From a virus: 24,661 bases of DNA. Positions 6,796 through 14,563 of the stretch are shown here, piece by piece; within the stretch, counting starts at the first letter, position 1; every line of letters begins with the position of its first letter. The DNA lies in the IMG/VR virus record IMGVR_UViG_3300010885_031651, positions 1 to 24,661 of that record. One strand, given 5' to 3'. The position numbers were made by a program, and so were the translations under genes. The notes beneath the pieces were generated by a model that saw nothing but the letters and a program-made list of their open reading frames with translations, was not told the DNA's origin and ran no database searches.

Positions 6796-6823
6796 ATTAT
6801 ATTCAATCACTTACGCTTACCAA
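6796..6823 (-). promoter_or_regulatory. Weak candidate promoter for gene 45
   Basis: The minus strand has TTGGTA (6818-6823), a 16-base spacer and TATAAT (6796-6801), 22 bases before the gp45 start. The -35 box lies within the end of the glycosyltransferase gene and matches four of six consensus bases. Confidence 0.35.
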
Positions 6824-7655
6824 GTTGACCTGGATCTGCAGTTGCAGATGCACCAATAGATGCTAGGTCAGCCAACGATCCACCAAAGATATAGCTACCA
6901 ACATGTTGTAACTTCATCCAAGGGCAGAACCATGTACGCAACTCTGCTTCTTGTGCCTTTTGACAGAACCAATAATCTTCTGAAAGATAACGCTTAGAAA
7001 CAGGATCTACTTCTGCTTGGAAGTACATCAAAATTTCACGGGAACCGTCGAATGCAGCAGTACGAACATGATCTGGTTTATAATGATATTGAGGATACTT
7101 ATCTTTAAATTTAGTCATAGCTTCCTTAGTAACCATCATAAACCCAGTTCCAATTTCAAGAACTTCACAAGGTTCACTAATTTGAATGGTCTGAGTTCCG
7201 CCCTTCGGATTAAACACATAATCACCAACAAACTTCTCAAGTACATTCGGATCTTCGTCAGCAATACCCTTATCAACTGCCAACTTAATTTTTTCCCAGC
7301 TAATGCACTTCTTGGGATATGGACCACCAATAATGTCATACTTTTCTGGTTCATTTGCCTGAAGCGCCATCAAAGCAATAACATCTTTTGGATCGAAACC
7401 AATATCTGAGTCAATAAACATTAAATGACCTGATTCAGAACGCATAAACTCATCGGCGCAATAATTTCTTGCACGAGTAATCAAAGATTCATTAAACAAA
7501 AAGTAAAACTGAAGAGGAATTCCATACTGAGTGCAAATAGCAGATAGGTCAGCACAAGACTTGGCGAACATACCAGTACATTGTCCACCATACATTGGTG
7601 TGGCAACAAAAAGCTTTCTTTTCTTCAATTCTTCAATATTAATTTTAATTTCCAT
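6807..7655 (-). CDS. GT-A-fold glycosyltransferase
   Basis: This 282-residue protein begins, after a short lead, with a strand-turn segment LFVATPMYGG (15-24) and carries LMFIDSDIGFDP (78-89), whose DSD is the metal- and nucleotide-sugar-binding DxD motif of GT-A enzymes. RARNYCADEF (61-70) and SEDYWFCQKA in the C-terminal half fit a family common in marine T4-like phages. Its start overlaps the upstream stop as TAATG, making it the last gene of the modification operon. In that context a hydroxymethylated or amino-modified base is a plausible acceptor, but related enzymes also occur in phages without such genes, so a protein or surface glycan acceptor is possible. Confidence 0.82.
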   Translation of the reverse strand: MEIKINIEELKKRKLFVATPMYGGQCTGMFAKSCADLSAICTQYGIPLQFYFLFNESLITRARNYCADEFMRSESGHLMFIDSDIGFDPKDVIALMALQANEPEKYDIIGGPYPKKCISWEKIKLAVDKGIADEDPNVLEKFVGDYVFNPKGGTQTIQISEPCEVLEIGTGFMMVTKEAMTKFKDKYPQYHYKPDHVRTAAFDGSREILMYFQAEVDPVSKRYLSEDYWFCQKAQEAELRTWFCPWMKLQHVGSYIFGGSLADLASIGASATADPGQLGKRK

Positions 7656-8059
7656 TATTTACCATCCTTATAATGATCCACATACAAACACATTAATGTG
7701 TAATGTAATGCTTTTAGCAAGTCAGCTTTATTGCTGCCATTTTTCTTACCGTATCGCCAAAGATATTTGAGAGATGTGTTTCGAAATGTAGGTGTTGAAT
7801 CACCAAGAGCAATCCACGCATCAAAACATTCTATACTCTGCTCTTCAGTCTTATAGTGTTCACTGTAAGTCTTATCTATATAGGCTTTGAAGTCAGCAAT
7901 AATCTGATCTTCAGCATATTTATAATCAATATTTTGAGAATGCGCTCCCTGTGTGATTAGAACAGTAGGAGTTTCTGATTCTTGTAATTTATCAGTGATA
8001 CTACCATAGTTTGGAAAGTTTGCACTAATAATTGTTGACCCCGTCATATTATTTTCCAT
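7655..8059 (-). CDS. DUF3310-like protein
   Basis: In this 134-residue protein the last third carries FRNTSLKYLWRYGKKNGS (91-108) followed by KADLLKALHYTL (110-121), the pattern of DUF3310 proteins, which in other phages are associated with nucleotide metabolism. The N-terminal half is unrecognised. GGAGG lies 6 bases before the chosen ATG; a second in-frame ATG is four codons later. It overlaps the kinase gene by 11 bases and the glycosyltransferase start as TAATG. Being inside the operon, it may handle a modified nucleotide or bind modified DNA, but this is inference. Confidence 0.65.
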   Translation of the reverse strand: MENNMTGSTIISANFPNYGSITDKLQESETPTVLITQGAHSQNIDYKYAEDQIIADFKAYIDKTYSEHYKTEEQSIECFDAWIALGDSTPTFRNTSLKYLWRYGKKNGSNKADLLKALHYTLMCLYVDHYKDGK

Positions 8060-8588
8060 TTATAGCCTCCAAAATTTCATTGTATATTTTGTTTTGCTCT
8101 TCATAGGTATTATTGTCAATACTTTTAATATTGAACATCAACATCATGTTTGTAAGAATATTGTTGATCTTACTTTCTCTGCCCTGTAACCAAGTTTTGT
8201 CTTGATTACTACCACGTAGCTTGTATCTTTCTTCACGAACGGATTCATTGGTCTTTAAATGAAAGATTTGTAACTCATAATTTTCAAGACAGTGTTCTAA
8301 GAATGACGAGGTAAATAAACGATCACCTTCAAATAATATTTTACTCTCTTTTGGTAAAGAAGCAAGGAATTTTATTGCTTCTGGTTGAACTGCCATGCTC
8401 ATTCTATCAGTACCAGAAAACACTTCACCTTCTTCATATTTGCCAAGAATGTAAATGTTATTTTTTTGCAGATAAGGAACTAATTTATATTGATTGTACT
8501 TTGGTTCAACACTATAATGTTCAAGTATTCGTTTCATCAGCGTTGATTTACCGCTGCCTGGATTACCACCAATAGCAATAATTCTCAT
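8049..8588 (-). CDS. P-loop kinase, candidate 5-hydroxymethylpyrimidine DNA kinase
   Basis: The 179-residue protein has an N-terminal Walker A GGNPGSGKST (7-16), a Walker-B-like ILFEGDRLF region near the middle and an arginine-rich lid, REERYKLRG, followed by WLQGRESKINNI. The GR.(S/T)KI.NI motif recalls the P-loop kinases predicted and partly shown to phosphorylate 5-hydroxymethyluracil in phage DNA; this comparison is from memory. Its neighbours, a TET/JBP oxygenase and an amino acid:DNA transferase-like protein, fit that role: phosphorylation would turn the hydroxymethyl into a leaving group. Its ribosome site GAGGAG is inside the end of the upstream gene (TAATG junction). A nucleotide monophosphate kinase is the main alternative. 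Confidence 0.72.
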   Translation of the reverse strand: MRIIAIGGNPGSGKSTLMKRILEHYSVEPKYNQYKLVPYLQKNNIYILGKYEEGEVFSGTDRMSMAVQPEAIKFLASLPKESKILFEGDRLFTSSFLEHCLENYELQIFHLKTNESVREERYKLRGSNQDKTWLQGRESKINNILTNMMLMFNIKSIDNNTYEEQNKIYNEILEAINGK

Positions 8589-9574
8589 TAAAAAAACTCC
8601 TCAAGACCAATTTTTTTATTCTCAAATAACCCTGTAGCATCTAATACATTTTCATTCATGTACAATTCCATTTTACTATTTTCTATCTTATTAGTCAACA
8701 GTTTATTATTGAGAGTTTCTTTTCTAGCATCCCACATTGGTTGCCAGTCAATACCAACCCAACTATCACTTTCACACTTGGCAATCTCTTCAGCTTGACG
8801 ATCGAGGTAGTATCCAAGATATCTGCCTTTCGATTTACGGAACAATTTCTTGAATGAACACAAGCAGGTTTCCATATCAAAGTAATCAGTGTTAGGAAAT
8901 TTTTGTTTTACTTCTTGGAGAATATAATACGCTTGACCATCAATATGATTCAATTGTATGTCTGTGAGTTTTTGATCATACCAATCATCAAGACCAAGTG
9001 CTAACAACAGTCCATTACGATGAGAACGAGAACCATCATGATCATCTAGCATCAGGTTGGTTGGTTCAATAGGAAGATCACAACACTGCTTGAGTGTTTG
9101 GAGATAGAACCAAGTTGAGTAGCGACCAAATTTGTGGAACTTGGTTTTTACTTCTGGCCAGAGACGTTCGAAGTTTTCTGTCGGCGAACCGACAAGGAAC
9201 GGCGCAAAAGCTTCACGTTGAGATCTATCTCCGACCCAATGTTTGTAACTTTCAAACTGGGCTGGTAGATGACCTTTGTTCCACTTGGTATCGGTTTGAT
9301 ACCTGAGCCGCTTGTAATTGTTATTGTTCCACTCGCGGAGTCGCTCGACCCCGACAAGTTCCATGTCAGGAAACTCATTCCAAACCACCCATGTTGTCGG
9401 AAGATAATACGTTGTCCCGTAGATCCAAGATATCCAGAGTTTTTGTTCTCTGTTATGCTCGAACCTACGAAACAAGTAATTGGTCATGAATATCGCTGGA
9501 TCACAATCCTTGATGGAAAGCGACCAGCGATACCAGTTTATGAAGTCTTGCTTACGCTGCAATTTGTTGTTCAT
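8588..9574 (-). CDS. Amino acid:DNA transferase-like protein (ADDT/AADT family)
   Basis: At 328 residues this looks like the family predicted to attach amino acids or amines to phosphorylated hydroxymethylpyrimidines in phage DNA. Supporting segments are FINWYRWSLSIKD (11-23), YLFRRFEHNREQKLWISW (33-50), GRYSTWFYLQTL (150-161) and LDDHDGSRSHRNGLL (176-190), plus ETCLCSFKKLFRKSKGRYLG (235-254). Family recognition is from memory and should be confirmed. I start at the ATG giving MNNKLQRKQ; an upstream in-frame TTG would add six residues. No clear ribosome site is present, and it overlaps the preceding gene by 23 bases, suggesting translational coupling. The substrate amine cannot be read from the sequence. 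Confidence 0.68.
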   Translation of the reverse strand: MNNKLQRKQDFINWYRWSLSIKDCDPAIFMTNYLFRRFEHNREQKLWISWIYGTTYYLPTTWVVWNEFPDMELVGVERLREWNNNNYKRLRYQTDTKWNKGHLPAQFESYKHWVGDRSQREAFAPFLVGSPTENFERLWPEVKTKFHKFGRYSTWFYLQTLKQCCDLPIEPTNLMLDDHDGSRSHRNGLLLALGLDDWYDQKLTDIQLNHIDGQAYYILQEVKQKFPNTDYFDMETCLCSFKKLFRKSKGRYLGYYLDRQAEEIAKCESDSWVGIDWQPMWDARKETLNNKLLTNKIENSKMELYMNENVLDATGLFENKKIGLEEFF

Positions 9575-11003
9575 CAAACAGCATATTGACAATGTTCTTT
9601 ATCATATTACCCTTTCTTGTAGTATCATAACGAGCTGGCAAAGAAACGATAAAAACTTTATAGCCATTATGTTTACCAACAAATGGAACATATCCATTAA
9701 TAGCTTTAGACTTATCAGGAAAGAAATTATAGAAAGCGAAATTGTTTTTTACCATTTCAAAAATTTCACTTTCTCTGTTTTCAGTTTTAGTTTGTGTATG
9801 GTATGCAAGAATAACTTCAGCATTTTTTCCTTGCGAAGCTCCAGTACTACCGAAATAGTTAGCTGGATTAGAGATTGCATCTCGATGAAGGCTAGAGAAA
9901 GAAGATTTACTAACTTCTGATTTAGGGAATCGCATTTTAACCTGATGAGAGAACTTATCAATCAACTTGTTAGCTGCATAATTTACCCAGTTATCACCCT
10001 TGATTTCATCTTCTTCGTACTTTTCTTTATACGCCTTAAGATTTTGAGCCAAAGCCTTTGCACTAAACTTTCTATAATAAAGAGCTTTGAAGCATTCACA
10101 AAAATCTTCAAATGATTCTTCAAATAGTTCTTTATGATCCATATGAAAAATATGGATATGAGTTGGTAACTCTTTCTTTGGATCCTGAGCTTTGTTATAT
10201 TTTTCAGGAATGTTTCGAGCTGAAGCGTAATTTCTCATTAGATAATTACTATCATTGAACACGCTCGATTTGAATCGAACCACAGGAACTGTTGGCCAAA
10301 TTTGACATTGTTCAACAGCATGCACAGTTGTTGTGCCATCCAAACGCATTTCTCTGCCATCTGGATATTCAATGATTGTACAAGGTTCAACTTTTCGAAC
10401 TGCTGCAATAGGATCGCGCATCATAGACTCAGCGACCTTATCGACTTCTCGAGGGTCAATATGGTTTTCAGTAACCTGAAGAAACTCCATCTTGGTCATA
10501 CGATCAACAGGCTCGTAAGTTACCTTATGAATAACTTTTTCAGGAGTGTCCAGTTGAACAACAACTGCTGATTGAACTTCTTTAGCCAATTTCTCAATAT
10601 ATAAATTAAGTTCTTCATATTTCTCAACAGAATATTTCTCTGGAAAAATATTATGAATGATCATATTCTCACCAACAATATAATCCTTTTCTTCAAGGAT
10701 ATTTTGACGAGCTCCACCACGATGTCCACCACCGCTGTTTTTATTGTAAAGATCAATCGCATTATTTTTCGCAAGATTGATCAAATATGTTTCAAGAGCA
10801 TGAGCCTTTTCTTTGCTTTCTCCCTTATAAACAATGTATTCGTCGATAAAATTATCTTCAATAGCTTTTTGAAGAAAGATGCTAGATGAAGAATGTGTGT
10901 ATGATTTGCTACCAACTTGGTGATGCAAACCAATATAAAAACAATTGATAGACTTATTATGAAGGATGTATACGTACCAGTAGTTCGGTTCAAAGCTTAA
11001 CAT
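9552..11003 (-). CDS. GIY-YIG nuclease-like domain fused to ParB-like domain
   Basis: The first 97 residues resemble a GIY-YIG nuclease: YVYILHN (10-16), CFYIG (21-25), Glu71 in ALETYLI and LYN..SGGGHRGG (86-97), in the subtype where SYTHSSSSIFLQKAIED replaces the usual arginine region. A linker follows, then a ParB-like segment centred on DGREMRLDGTTTVHAV (215-230), with DGTTT at the place ParB family members carry DG.HR. The last 230 residues are mainly helical and unrecognised. ParB-like proteins are often encoded beside predicted phage DNA modification enzymes. A role in targeting DNA or cutting unmodified DNA is inference; the GIY-YIG module could also be a captured homing nuclease. Total length is 483 residues. 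Confidence 0.65.
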   Translation of the reverse strand: MLSFEPNYWYVYILHNKSINCFYIGLHHQVGSKSYTHSSSSIFLQKAIEDNFIDEYIVYKGESKEKAHALETYLINLAKNNAIDLYNKNSGGGHRGGARQNILEEKDYIVGENMIIHNIFPEKYSVEKYEELNLYIEKLAKEVQSAVVVQLDTPEKVIHKVTYEPVDRMTKMEFLQVTENHIDPREVDKVAESMMRDPIAAVRKVEPCTIIEYPDGREMRLDGTTTVHAVEQCQIWPTVPVVRFKSSVFNDSNYLMRNYASARNIPEKYNKAQDPKKELPTHIHIFHMDHKELFEESFEDFCECFKALYYRKFSAKALAQNLKAYKEKYEEDEIKGDNWVNYAANKLIDKFSHQVKMRFPKSEVSKSSFSSLHRDAISNPANYFGSTGASQGKNAEVILAYHTQTKTENRESEIFEMVKNNFAFYNFFPDKSKAINGYVPFVGKHNGYKVFIVSLPARYDTTRKGNMIKNIVNMLFDEQQIAA

Positions 11004-11021: not shown

Positions 11022-11645
11022 TCATATTTGTATAGAGCGAGATTGTGTGATTGTTAAGAACTCTTTATAACGCGATGGATGACCAAAGTCAAATTCATCA
11101 TGTTTCTTGACTTTTTTAGCTATCCACTTCAATTTTGCATTACGAAGTTCTTGTGGATATTTGTTCAATATTTCATTAGCAGACAGGGTTTGTATCTCTC
11201 TAAAACATTCTACACCTCTTTCATTTATAGGAAGATCACAGAACATGGAATGACTAATGGTTGTACCCCAATAAGTCATTCCAAGTTTATCGTAGAAACC
11301 AAGAGCAGACTGATTGCAATCTAGACGAATGCTCGTAGCTCCTGCTTCAACTGCTTCGAGGATGTTACGGTGCAACATTTCTCTAGCAGAACCTTTACCA
11401 CGACCTGGAGTCGGAGTAAAAATATTAGAAATGAAAAGAACTTTGGACTTAGCTTGACCAGAGATCTTCATAAAACAAACGGAAAGTATCTCTTCGTTTT
11501 CCTCTAACACTCTAGGTGGCCAAGTATCCCAAGCTTTCATAAAGTCCCACATCCCCATGGCTACTTTAGAGAACTTCTGGTCTTTTTCAACCAGAGTATT
11601 ATGATAGCTTAAATATTCGGTTTTGTCAAGCGTTTTATAGATCAT
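11022..11645 (-). CDS. GNAT-family acetyltransferase
   Basis: The 207-residue protein has the acetyl-CoA pyrophosphate loop GRGKGSAREML (81-91) after a beta-strand, and the C-terminal GNAT signature NQSALGFYDKLGMTYWGT (111-128). About 70 residues follow beyond the GNAT core, basic and helical. Its ATG overlaps the amidoligase stop as ATGA, indicating translational coupling. In this operon it could acylate a free amine that an earlier step installed on a base, or modify a small molecule before transfer to DNA. Acetylation of a host protein is the alternative. Sequence alone does not show the acceptor. Confidence 0.83.
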   Translation of the reverse strand: MIYKTLDKTEYLSYHNTLVEKDQKFSKVAMGMWDFMKAWDTWPPRVLEENEEILSVCFMKISGQAKSKVLFISNIFTPTPGRGKGSAREMLHRNILEAVEAGATSIRLDCNQSALGFYDKLGMTYWGTTISHSMFCDLPINERGVECFREIQTLSANEILNKYPQELRNAKLKWIAKKVKKHDEFDFGHPSRYKEFLTITQSRSIQI

Positions 11646-12562
11646 ACTGAAAGAAATTTACGAGACTTGCCGAGCTTGTTAAGACCAAGCTTCTCGGCTG
11701 TTTCATCATCAAGGTTACGGTCAGTACGTTCATGTTTGGTCTTTTCCCAACCAAGATACATTTCATGATCATATTCAAAAGGCGGGAACTTGTAATCGTT
11801 TTGAAGGAACAATTCCTGAACATCAGGACCATCGTTCAAAGCAGCATCAATCCAATCAGTTGCAAAACGGAAACAATCTGTAATCTCTTTACGATCTATC
11901 GAACTACGGAAACAACGAAACTCGATTGTCTTTGAGTTCTTGAGTGCATAGGTATGAATACCATAGCGAAATGGACGAGACTTCGTCTTAGCATCTTTAC
12001 CACAACAATGCACACGGATCCAATCATCAAAATCAACAGGTACAGTTGCAAGATTAGTTCCAAGCCAATCAGGCATAATACGCCCACCATCGTGCTTAAG
12101 ATAAGTTTTGGCAGTCTTTGTCATATCCATGTTAGGCATAACATGAAACTGATAGCAACGATCAATAGTCATGTGCTGATTGTCACGAAGATATCGTGAA
12201 AGTCTCTTCAAAGCATCAATGTCTTCAGTCAACCCTGGAACATGGATATGAAGATGACCATGATTAACACATCCAGCAGTAGGAGGAGTACCATGCTCAA
12301 CGAACATATCATGAAGTTTCATAATGTTATCAACCTGTTCTTCCATAGTCTTTGTTGGCTTTGTATTAATCTCACCACCAACAGGAGGGTTCACTCCCTT
12401 TGGATCCGAGCCGATACCACGATAAGGTTCGCGAAGATTGATAATATCAGTTTCACAAAATTCCCAAGCTCCAAGCTCTGGAGGAATTGGCATGTTACGA
12501 TCAATATCACCCCACTCGATTTCGAAACCATAGGTGAAGGTGTTTCTATCATATTTGTTCAT
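11642..12562 (-). CDS. Amidoligase-family ATP-dependent carboxylate-amine ligase
   Basis: This 306-residue protein shows the ordered motifs of the amidoligase_2 family, which has a glutamine-synthetase-like fold: YGFEIEW (11-17), GGEINTKPT (62-70), NHGHLHIHV (100-108) and TIEFRCFRSS (212-221). The acidic and histidine residues would bind Mg-ATP. Family members are predicted to join a carboxylate to an amine. It overlaps a class II glutamine amidotransferase by ATGA at its start and a GNAT gene by ATGA at its end. I infer that it makes or extends an amide-linked group destined for the modified base. A protein-modifying ligase cannot be excluded. The C-terminal tail (about 275-306) is charged and unrecognised. 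Confidence 0.8.
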   Translation of the reverse strand: MNKYDRNTFTYGFEIEWGDIDRNMPIPPELGAWEFCETDIINLREPYRGIGSDPKGVNPPVGGEINTKPTKTMEEQVDNIMKLHDMFVEHGTPPTAGCVNHGHLHIHVPGLTEDIDALKRLSRYLRDNQHMTIDRCYQFHVMPNMDMTKTAKTYLKHDGGRIMPDWLGTNLATVPVDFDDWIRVHCCGKDAKTKSRPFRYGIHTYALKNSKTIEFRCFRSSIDRKEITDCFRFATDWIDAALNDGPDVQELFLQNDYKFPPFEYDHEMYLGWEKTKHERTDRNLDDETAEKLGLNKLGKSRKFLSV

Positions 12563-13245
12563 TGCAAATCCTCGGCGTTTGAATTTCTTAAAATATCATG
12601 AACAGCGTTCATTTGGAAATGTTCAACAGTATACATAGTAAGCATACTAGTTTTTTGAATATTAGTCAAGTTAGATCTTTTGGCAATATCTTCAGTAGAC
12701 GTAAATATTATATGATTCATATCATAAGCATAATATAATGGACGCTCTGCATTTCGAAAAGCTACAATTCTTTTATCATCATACAAAGCACAAACTGCCA
12801 TAGAAGCAGGTTCAAAATGCTGAAGAGGATTTACATCTTCTTCCATCGCTCGCAAAACAAGCTCTGAGTCGTTTGAGGTTTCTGTTCTGAGTTTGTATTT
12901 GTCTTCCCAAGTTTCAGGCGGTTCTTGAGATATGACACCATTATGGGCAATAGATAGTTTATCACTAGACATAGGCTGATTATAACGCAGATCAGAAGTT
13001 GAATATCTAATGTGCCCAATACAGTAGAGATTTCCATCTTCATTTCTCCATTCGTTTAGATCCTGCTTCATAATAAACTCATTAGCAGGGATAGGATCTT
13101 TGATTGTATTTACACGACCGTTTTTGACATAAGAAACACCAGTCGCATGCTTACCACGGATCATTGATTGAATGAAGAGACTACGAACTAAATCGTAGTC
13201 TCCCTCATTGAAGTTTTTAATGGCAATGCCAAGAACACCACACAT
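12559..13245 (-). CDS. Class II glutamine amidotransferase (Ntn hydrolase)
   Basis: The start codon is followed directly by Cys2, the nucleophile once Met1 is removed. The family landmarks follow in order: GKHATGVSY (31-39), GHIRYST (77-83), AHNGVI (100-105) and ETSNDSE (122-128). At 228 residues it is a stand-alone glutaminase domain without a synthetase. It would release ammonia from glutamine. The next gene, overlapping by ATGA, is the amidoligase, a natural acceptor for that ammonia; the preceding gene is the TET/JBP oxygenase (TAATG junction). Production of an amide or amine for DNA modification is inferred from this arrangement. Confidence 0.9.
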   Translation of the reverse strand: MCGVLGIAIKNFNEGDYDLVRSLFIQSMIRGKHATGVSYVKNGRVNTIKDPIPANEFIMKQDLNEWRNEDGNLYCIGHIRYSTSDLRYNQPMSSDKLSIAHNGVISQEPPETWEDKYKLRTETSNDSELVLRAMEEDVNPLQHFEPASMAVCALYDDKRIVAFRNAERPLYYAYDMNHIIFTSTEDIAKRSNLTNIQKTSMLTMYTVEHFQMNAVHDILRNSNAEDLQ

Positions 13246-14546
13246 TAAGAGAAGAAATCCTCTAAGCTAGATACAGTTTCAGCCATATATGGATCTTGCA
13301 TATTATGAGTTGACATATAGTCATACCATTCCTGTTCATGCCACATATCAGCATTTACACCATTCCAAAGAGGACGCCAGTACTTGTGTTCTTTGTTTAA
13401 ACGTCTCTCGTCAATATATTGTTTACGTAGCTGTTCATAATCCCATGATTTAAGATCGACCATTTTTTCGCGAAAATAAGCAACAATAGTCATACGGTCA
13501 TTGTTGTCGCCAATAAGTTCATCATTAGCATGAATACCGCCATGATTATTTACAAGCAACATATCTCCTGGCTCAAGCTTTACAGCAATGCGAAACTCAG
13601 GAAGAATAAATTCAGCGCCTTCCCAACCTTTGCCAAGAGCACAAATGTTAGAAAACCCTTCATGAAGATCTCCAGCATCTCGATGACATGCAGTACGCCA
13701 GTTATGATTTACAGTAAGAGTAGTAAACACTGTTCTATCAATAAGAAAACGAGGATCAAGTTTATCAGCTTCTTTACGTTGATTGTTCCAACGAATAGGA
13801 AGCAATTCTTTAAACTGATCATTCAACTTATTGAGAAATGGATATGACTCAGTAAAATCTTCTGGATGTTTTTCAGTATAAGAAGCTGCACGACCATAAG
13901 GAATACGAGGATAGCGATCAAAATATCCAGCAATACCAGACATAACTGACTGTGCATAATTTGTTTCAGAAATATAATTATTGATTACATATTCTGCTTC
14001 TTCAATTTGCTCTTCGCGAGACATATTATGAAGACCATTGACCCACTTATCAAACCAACCATGATATTCAGGATACTTCTTGGTTACTTCAGAACGTAAC
14101 CAAACCTGACCACGTGTTTCTTCTTTCGAAGAAATTTTATTACTTGTACGAATTGTGTCAATAGTAGTTCCATCATCAAAAGTATTGATTGGTCTTGCAA
14201 GAAACGAAAGAATTTCAAGATGTTCGGCAGTAACCCAATCGCGATTACCACGACCTTCCTGACCAAGTTGATCACCACGAGGACCAGCAGCCATACCACG
14301 GTTCTGTGATTCAGTTGCTGCATTACGCAAACCCTGATAACAACGACGACGTTCTTCGTCAGTAAATACACCCTTACGAAATTTGAAAATAATATTTTCT
14401 TCTGATTTCAAATTAGAATCAATAGGATCTTCTGCATAAAGATCGCAATCTTCTGTGATGATACGATCTGTATATTCAGCACAAGTAATGAATGTACCTA
14501 AAGTTTCTTCTGAATCTATCTTTTTTCTGACTAATACTTCTATCAT
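13245..14546 (-). CDS. TET/JBP-like 2-oxoglutarate/Fe(II) dioxygenase
   Basis: This 433-residue protein carries a double-stranded beta-helix oxygenase domain in its second half. NHNWRTACHRDAGDLHEG (280-297) supplies the HxD iron ligands H288 and D290; GWEGAEFILPEF (307-318) and EPGDMLLVNNHGGIHAND (325-342) follow with distal ligand H339; DRMTIVAYFRE (350-360) gives the arginine for 2-oxoglutarate. The layout resembles TET/JBP enzymes, which oxidise the 5-methyl of thymine or 5-methylcytosine in DNA. GGAGG lies 5 bases before the chosen ATG; an in-frame TTG 12 bases earlier would include it. It is the first gene of the coupled operon and probably makes the initial hydroxymethyl base. No cytosine methyltransferase is seen in the window. 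Confidence 0.85.
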   Translation of the reverse strand: MIEVLVRKKIDSEETLGTFITCAEYTDRIITEDCDLYAEDPIDSNLKSEENIIFKFRKGVFTDEERRRCYQGLRNAATESQNRGMAAGPRGDQLGQEGRGNRDWVTAEHLEILSFLARPINTFDDGTTIDTIRTSNKISSKEETRGQVWLRSEVTKKYPEYHGWFDKWVNGLHNMSREEQIEEAEYVINNYISETNYAQSVMSGIAGYFDRYPRIPYGRAASYTEKHPEDFTESYPFLNKLNDQFKELLPIRWNNQRKEADKLDPRFLIDRTVFTTLTVNHNWRTACHRDAGDLHEGFSNICALGKGWEGAEFILPEFRIAVKLEPGDMLLVNNHGGIHANDELIGDNNDRMTIVAYFREKMVDLKSWDYEQLRKQYIDERRLNKEHKYWRPLWNGVNADMWHEQEWYDYMSTHNMQDPYMAETVSSLEDFFS

Positions 14547-14563
14547 CTTTGCCTCCAATAATA

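Follow-up and report, generated by a model that had tools for sequence, protein, structure and literature searches.

A glutaminase, an amidoligase and an acyltransferase as the variable part of a probable thymidine hypermodification cassette in T4-like phages

What might a glutaminase, an amidoligase and a GNAT acyltransferase do when they are encoded directly behind an oxygenase of the TET/JBP type? The question is raised by a stretch of 24,661 nucleotides from the IMG/VR record IMGVR_UViG_3300010885_031651, here called the window, which is a fragment of a T4-like phage with a major head protein, a UvsW-like helicase, a late sigma factor, gp46/47, a clamp and a clamp loader. An amino acid:DNA transferase and a kinase form the core of known thymidine hypermodification, in which 5-hydroxymethyluracil (5hmU) in DNA first receives a phosphate and is then substituted (PMC6449724), and the cassette described below very probably belongs to such a pathway. 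In a cassette of six to seven genes for the hypermodification of thymine in phage DNA after replication, the trio would be the part that varies. The window genes lie on the minus strand, and those relevant here are the following:

13245..14558, minus strand: TET/JBP 2-oxoglutarate/Fe(II) oxygenase (TET), 437 aa; Pfam Tet_JBP, E 2.7e-19
12559..13245, minus strand: stand-alone class II glutaminase (GAT), 228 aa; Pfam GATase_6, E 6.5e-12
11642..12562, minus strand: amidoligase (AMI), an ATP-dependent carboxylate-amine ligase of gamma-glutamylcysteine synthetase (GCS)/glutamine synthetase (GS) fold by motifs, AlphaFold and Foldseek, 306 aa
11022..11645, minus strand: GNAT acyltransferase, 207 aa; Pfam Acetyltransf_1, E 2.4e-5
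9552..11003, minus strand: GIY-YIG + ParB/Noc/sulfiredoxin-fold protein, 483 aa; Pfam GIY-YIG, E 3.2e-4
8588..9592, minus strand: amino acid:DNA transferase (ADDT), 334 aa; PF18724, E 3.6e-24
8049..8588, minus strand: P-loop kinase, 179 aa; PF18751, E 3.5e-12
6807..7655: glycosyltransferase-like protein, PHROG 1574

The trio is packed tightly behind TET, just as an earlier note on this DNA had read it, the TET/GAT junction being TAATG and the GAT/AMI and AMI/GNAT overlaps being ATGA each. Past GNAT, the same gene run continues with the GIY-YIG/ParB protein, ADDT and the P-loop kinase, which were absent from that note. A search for the trio beside TET/JBP genes in other phages, which the note had suggested, recovered the same gene run in dozens of contigs, and in the GAT, AMI and GNAT genes alike dN falls far short of dS, indicating purifying selection; because of this recurrence and these dN and dS values, the gene run is not due to chance. 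The PHROG 1574 protein is retained in nearly all relatives whatever their cassette and therefore is probably not specific to this modification. PADLOC gave two matches only, both of them weak kinase matches.

Among 20 distinct AMI loci flanked on both sides by 4.5 kb or more, TET, GAT, GNAT, ADDT and kinase were found together in 18, which places the trio in DNA-base chemistry, as had been supposed, and not mostly in loci without oxygenases. In complete TET loci, ADDT and kinase accompany AMI in 24 of 24 cases and are present in 16 of the 42 loci without AMI (Fisher 1.4e-7, a p-value which, like the others of this kind, counts related loci as independent). The supposed tie of the trio to the DNA oxygenase held in part: TET lies beside most trios, but in some clusters a thymidylate-synthase homologue replaces it. 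A TET-specific module was rejected on the same grounds, and what the trio accompanies appears to be 5hmU/ADDT chemistry, not the oxygenase itself. On a TET tree of 73 rows, the GAT/AMI cassette requires 16 changes, and supported branches force at least 8 of these; an independent-pairs test on the supported branches had 4 pairs to work with, too few for significance, and none of them contradicted the expected direction.

In IMG/VR contigs, a swap site between TET and the replication genes is occupied by one of several gene sets, namely GAT-AMI-GNAT-(GIY/ParB)-ADDT-kinase; GAT-glycosyltransferase-AMI-phosphatase-ADDT-kinase; ADDT and kinase with a methylase-like gene, with an N6/N4 DNA methylase, or with FkbM or inositol-phosphate synthase; and glycosyltransferases (TET-associated and others), with ADDT absent. 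In L019 (2983-3759), a methylase-like protein with a weak RrnaAD match replaces GAT-AMI-GNAT, and the adjoining TET is 92% identical to the window TET. The AMI cassette itself remains intact where the order of its genes is permuted and where the phage backbone differs (e.g. L184, L157 and L160). Myo-inositol-1-phosphate synthase occurs with ADDT in L091, L066 and L075, an FkbM methyltransferase being present also in L091 and L075, and it is annotated near ADDT in phage Cr30 (L004); an inositol-based base modification is possible for these cassettes.

From the observed gene content, folds, conserved residues, co-occurrence and swapping, we infer the chemistry of all five steps of the following scheme. 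TET would convert thymine in DNA to 5hmU and the P-loop kinase, judged by its family, would phosphorylate the hydroxymethyl group. As its co-inheritance with GAT suggests, ADDT would then swap the phosphate for ammonia released from glutamine by GAT, and not for an amino acid, giving 5-aminomethyl-dU. AMI, using ATP, would form an amide bond between the aminomethyl amine and a small carboxylate, which may be an amino acid, and GNAT would acylate the amine still free after this step. Where AMI is lacking, another clade of GNAT would acylate the aminomethyl group directly. The five-step scheme as a whole is slightly favoured, whereas chances are about even for the statement that a glutaminase-fed ADDT makes 5-aminomethyl-dU, a GCS/GS ligase extends the base by an amide side chain, possibly an aminoacyl one, and GNAT caps it. 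To our knowledge, no DNA transferase has been described as fed by a glutaminase, and no ligase of GCS fold as acting on DNA.

According to the earlier note, the glutaminase has Cys2 and lacks a synthetase domain, and both features were confirmed: Cys2, Arg80, Asn102-Gly103 and Asp126 of class II enzymes are conserved, the catalytic Cys2 and its partner residues being invariant even at 34% identity, and a synthetase domain is absent. A class II glutaminase commonly supplies a ligase with its ammonia. The earlier note had paired GAT with the amidoligase for the amidation of a carboxylate. In such a pathway, ADDT would add an amino acid to 5-phosphomethyl-dU, GAT and AMI would turn its carboxylate into a carboxamide with glutamine ammonia, and GNAT would cap the amine. 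The adjacent and overlapping GAT and AMI genes of the window, the presence of GAT in 24 of 31 non-redundant AMI loci, the GAT-amidoligase pairs known in other phages and the AsnB-type ligase CmoY, which forms a base amide on phage DNA (PMC12783734), are all consistent with it. However, GAT persists with ADDT in AMI-less loci and AMI persists in GAT-less loci. In a set of 36 non-redundant GAT loci, which was partly gathered by TET or AMI queries and is thereby biased toward AMI, ADDT was present in 36, AMI in 28 and a flavin lyase in none. On an enlarged ADDT tree of 77 rows (a quick tree with some long branches; the trees besides the TET tree are all from quick searches), GAT changes 2 times and AMI presence at least 6 times. 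In an earlier ADDT tree, the GAT-bearing loci, including two AMI-less ones, fell within a single ADDT subfamily, from which the existence of more GAT-ADDT cassettes without AMI was predicted. A GAT-only scan, run to test this prediction, returned many AMI-less loci, mostly GAT-GNAT-ADDT-TET-kinase. In 19 of 20 contigs with AMI-less GAT loci, no AMI was found elsewhere by HMM searches, which a very divergent AMI can escape, and as most contigs are fragments, absences weigh little beyond adjacent genes. Judged by this pattern of inheritance, ADDT is probably the client of GAT, and the GAT-AMI pairing is not favoured.

The window AMI scores 16 bits against Pfam Amidoligase_2, below the cut-off of 22, yet its identification as an amidoligase stands by the family motifs (G12, E14, E16, GGE62-64, H103, H105, R199, E214 and R216) and by an AlphaFold model (pLDDT 91) that shows the GCS/GS fold and for which Foldseek matched GshF, YbdK, GCS and GS. 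Amidoligase_2 matches were obtained for 14 of 37 aligned AMI sequences (best 1.4e-5), the relatives in L189 (25.5 bits) and L208 (23.6 bits) lying above the cut-off. A PDB sequence search with the AMI profile gave nothing useful, only the structure model revealing the fold, and a scan with the AMI of phage Simon as sole query recovered 0 relatives.

Where AMI occurs without GAT, it adjoins either a flavin oxidoreductase (phage Simon, L206, L207 and L189/L210) or radical SAM and/or PLP enzymes (L208, L209 and L211), and across the records searched GAT and a flavin enzyme were never found in one locus. The L206 locus, where the lyase gene at its end overlaps AMI, gives matches to two solved structures: 8z2o, a 'flavin-dependent lyase', for the oxidoreductase (E 4e-54), and 8z2m, a 'glycinyltransferase', for the ADDT (1e-85). 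We take these two structures to be the enzyme pair of the Na-GlyT and 5-NmdU study. The end product of that pathway is reportedly an amine without a carboxylate, so AMI in L206-type loci most simply acylates an amine, and when this reading is carried to the window, GAT and ADDT become the amine-making step. By this analogy, an amine is moderately favoured as the group acylated by AMI. The same neighbours, expected to leave an amine and to strip a carboxylate, speak against GAT and AMI as an amidating pair: in the flavin-lyase or radical-SAM/PLP settings the carboxylate of the amino acid should already be gone, so that no group is left to amidate. Amidation of an amino acid carboxylate on the base is thus unlikely.

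GAT ammonia could also go to either synthase, ADDT or AMI, depending on which of them the locus has, and may have moved to AMI in AMI-bearing cassettes. The order GAT-AMI-GNAT-ADDT fits such a double clientele, as GAT lies beside AMI where AMI is present and otherwise beside GNAT-ADDT or ADDT, but AMI-plus and AMI-minus settings have the same GAT-type ADDT subfamily, and we regard it as rather improbable that GAT serves both enzymes.

Returning to AMI as an amine-acylating enzyme, AMI and low-molecular-weight phosphatase domains share one open frame in L208 (8659-10338) and apparently also in L207 (8940-10343), and in other loci the phosphatase occupies the GNAT position; the fusion suggests, as another sign, a common pathway. 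A 375-aa gene of L133, which on visual inspection resembled a PLP enzyme, was discarded because Pfam, PDB and pairwise comparisons gave it no support. L189, filed as a Parcubacteria MAG, has phage-like genes and a TET-kinase-AMI cluster that is also present in the viral contig L210. In the jumbo phage Vibrio phage 2.275.O (L007, 8896-13156), a distant AMI relative and a class II GAT have 7-deazaguanine genes as neighbours and perhaps amidate a deazaguanine carboxylate.

The GNAT has the CoA loop GRGKGSA and is predicted to cap the final amine. On the GNAT tree, AMI-plus and AMI-minus loci form cleanly separate clades (one change, support 98), as expected if AMI changes the acceptor. The window ADDT falls in the GAT-associated ADDT clade and is predicted to displace the phosphate of 5-phosphomethyl-dU. 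Characterised ADDTs use an amino acid and the use of ammonia is a proposal; in an alignment, no clear candidate for a conserved amino-acid-binding residue lost in GAT-type ADDTs was seen at this divergence. In the case of the kinase, a match to the P-loop kinase family PF18751 was obtained, HMUDK_hel (5-hmdU-kinase helical domain) was not found in the cassette, and the protein is predicted to be a 5hmdU-DNA kinase. The GIY-YIG/ParB protein is an optional member, missing or replaced in many loci, with Par493 (without GIY-YIG) found elsewhere. Foldseek related its model (pLDDT 85) to Noc, Srx and PadC and, among the weaker matches, to SbnI, presumably a ParB-like free serine kinase, and the protein may be a kinase or CTP switch and not a nuclease guide.

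In TET, the residues H292, D294, H343 and R355 are conserved (76 sequences), and the methyl group of thymine in DNA is its predicted hydroxylation target. In 29 TET-bearing records of relatives, including the isolates DLP6, C48C1, Cr30 and S-CBWM1, no C5-cytosine methylase (PF00145) and no CmoA-type C5-cytosine (carboxy)methyltransferase was found, the window itself being a fragment, and in TET-less clusters (phage Simon, L107 and L206-L209) a thymidylate-synthase homologue is present, as it is in M6-like phages, which provide 5hmU as a nucleotide. Because a C5-cytosine methylase is lacking in those records and the thymidylate-synthase homologue appears where TET is missing, thymine is the likely target, TET serving as an alternative 5hmU source; the window would thus possess such a source in TET, which replaces the homologue of its TET-less relatives. 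In DLP6, Cr30 and S-CBWM1 (L002, L004 and L005), the TET genes carry the name 'SNF2 DNA repair protein', which is wrong in view of their near-full-length alignment to the window TET.

If cytosine were the target instead, TET would oxidise 5-methylcytosine and the remaining enzymes would decorate 5hmC. Phage TETs acting in C5-cytosine hypermodification have been described, according to the title of Burke 2021 as cited in PMC13222311. In relatives, a TET-associated glycosyltransferase (PF20691) stands in place of the window cassette. However, the 29 records mentioned above, four isolates among them, contain 0 C5-cytosine methylases, and in characterised phages ADDT and its partner kinase act on 5hmU, making cytosine a very improbable target. 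Just as improbable is a role of the trio off the DNA, in peptide or cell-wall modification, e.g. against superinfection: although such a role has been proposed in print for the amidoligase and GAT of phages (PMC10580990 citing Iyer 2009) and although RimK and gamma-glutamyl cyclotransferase accompany the amidoligase-GAT of LUZ24, Pfam detects in the window cassette neither ATP-grasp nor cyclotransferase, the partners in peptide or metabolite operons, and AMI, GAT and GNAT remain with ADDT, kinase and a 5hmU source across gene orders and phage backbones.

Of the systems compared here, M6/ViI-type hypermodification, Tonitrus and CmoY come nearest. The thymidine hypermodification indicated for the window would have a 5hmU intermediate, a predicted DNA kinase, an ADDT-type transferase and tailoring enzymes in common with the M6, ViI and phiW-14 systems (Lee 2018/2022), acetyltransferases reportedly being among the tailoring enzymes. 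Whereas those phages make 5hmU as a nucleotide, TET would make it in DNA, and a glutaminase locked to ADDT and an amidoligase as tailoring enzyme would be features of the window. With the Na-GlyT/5-NmdU pathway (8z2m; 8z2o/8z79; Wen 2024, whose title on Na-GlyT and 5-NmdU is cited by PMC11946847), the cassette would share 5-aminomethyl-dU as predicted intermediate, and in L206 relatives of the glycinyltransferase and lyase adjoin the AMI family, but the flavin lyase is absent from the window cassette and nitrogen is proposed to come directly from GAT. The THM genes of the R. equi phage Tonitrus encode ParB-like, TET/J-binding, aGPT-Pplase2 and 5hmU kinase proteins (PMC11955845), so that ParB, TET, transferase and kinase occur together as in the window, whereas GAT, amidoligase and GNAT, all three present in the window, are unreported there apart from one hypothetical protein. 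CmoA-CmoX-CmoY (PMC12783734) builds an amide bond on a phage DNA base, as is proposed here, and some CmoY homologues carry a glutaminase domain, but it uses cytosine, a carboxymethyl handle and an AsnB-fold ligase, in contrast to the thymine indicated here and a GCS/GS-fold ligase. The operons of LUZ24 and of OM43 phages, the latter without ADDT (PMC10580990), combine an amidoligase with a class II glutaminase as the window does, but the LUZ24 stretch examined lacks ADDT, kinase and TET. Among the best-ranked matches of a literature search, the terms 'thymidine hypermodification' and 'amidoligase' did not occur together in any paper; outside the scope of this search lay Iyer 2013, Lee 2018, Lee 2022, Burke 2021 and Wen 2024.

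If true, the proposed pathway would widen the DNA chemistry that phages apply to themselves by a glutamine-nitrogen route and an amide ligase. Phage amidoligases and glutaminases, which mostly appear in annotations under metabolism or cell wall, would thereby gain a clear function. The exchange of cassettes at one locus in uncultured T4-like phages is a natural experiment in the diversification of DNA disguise, and the cassettes offer small, testable enzyme sets for functionalised DNA.
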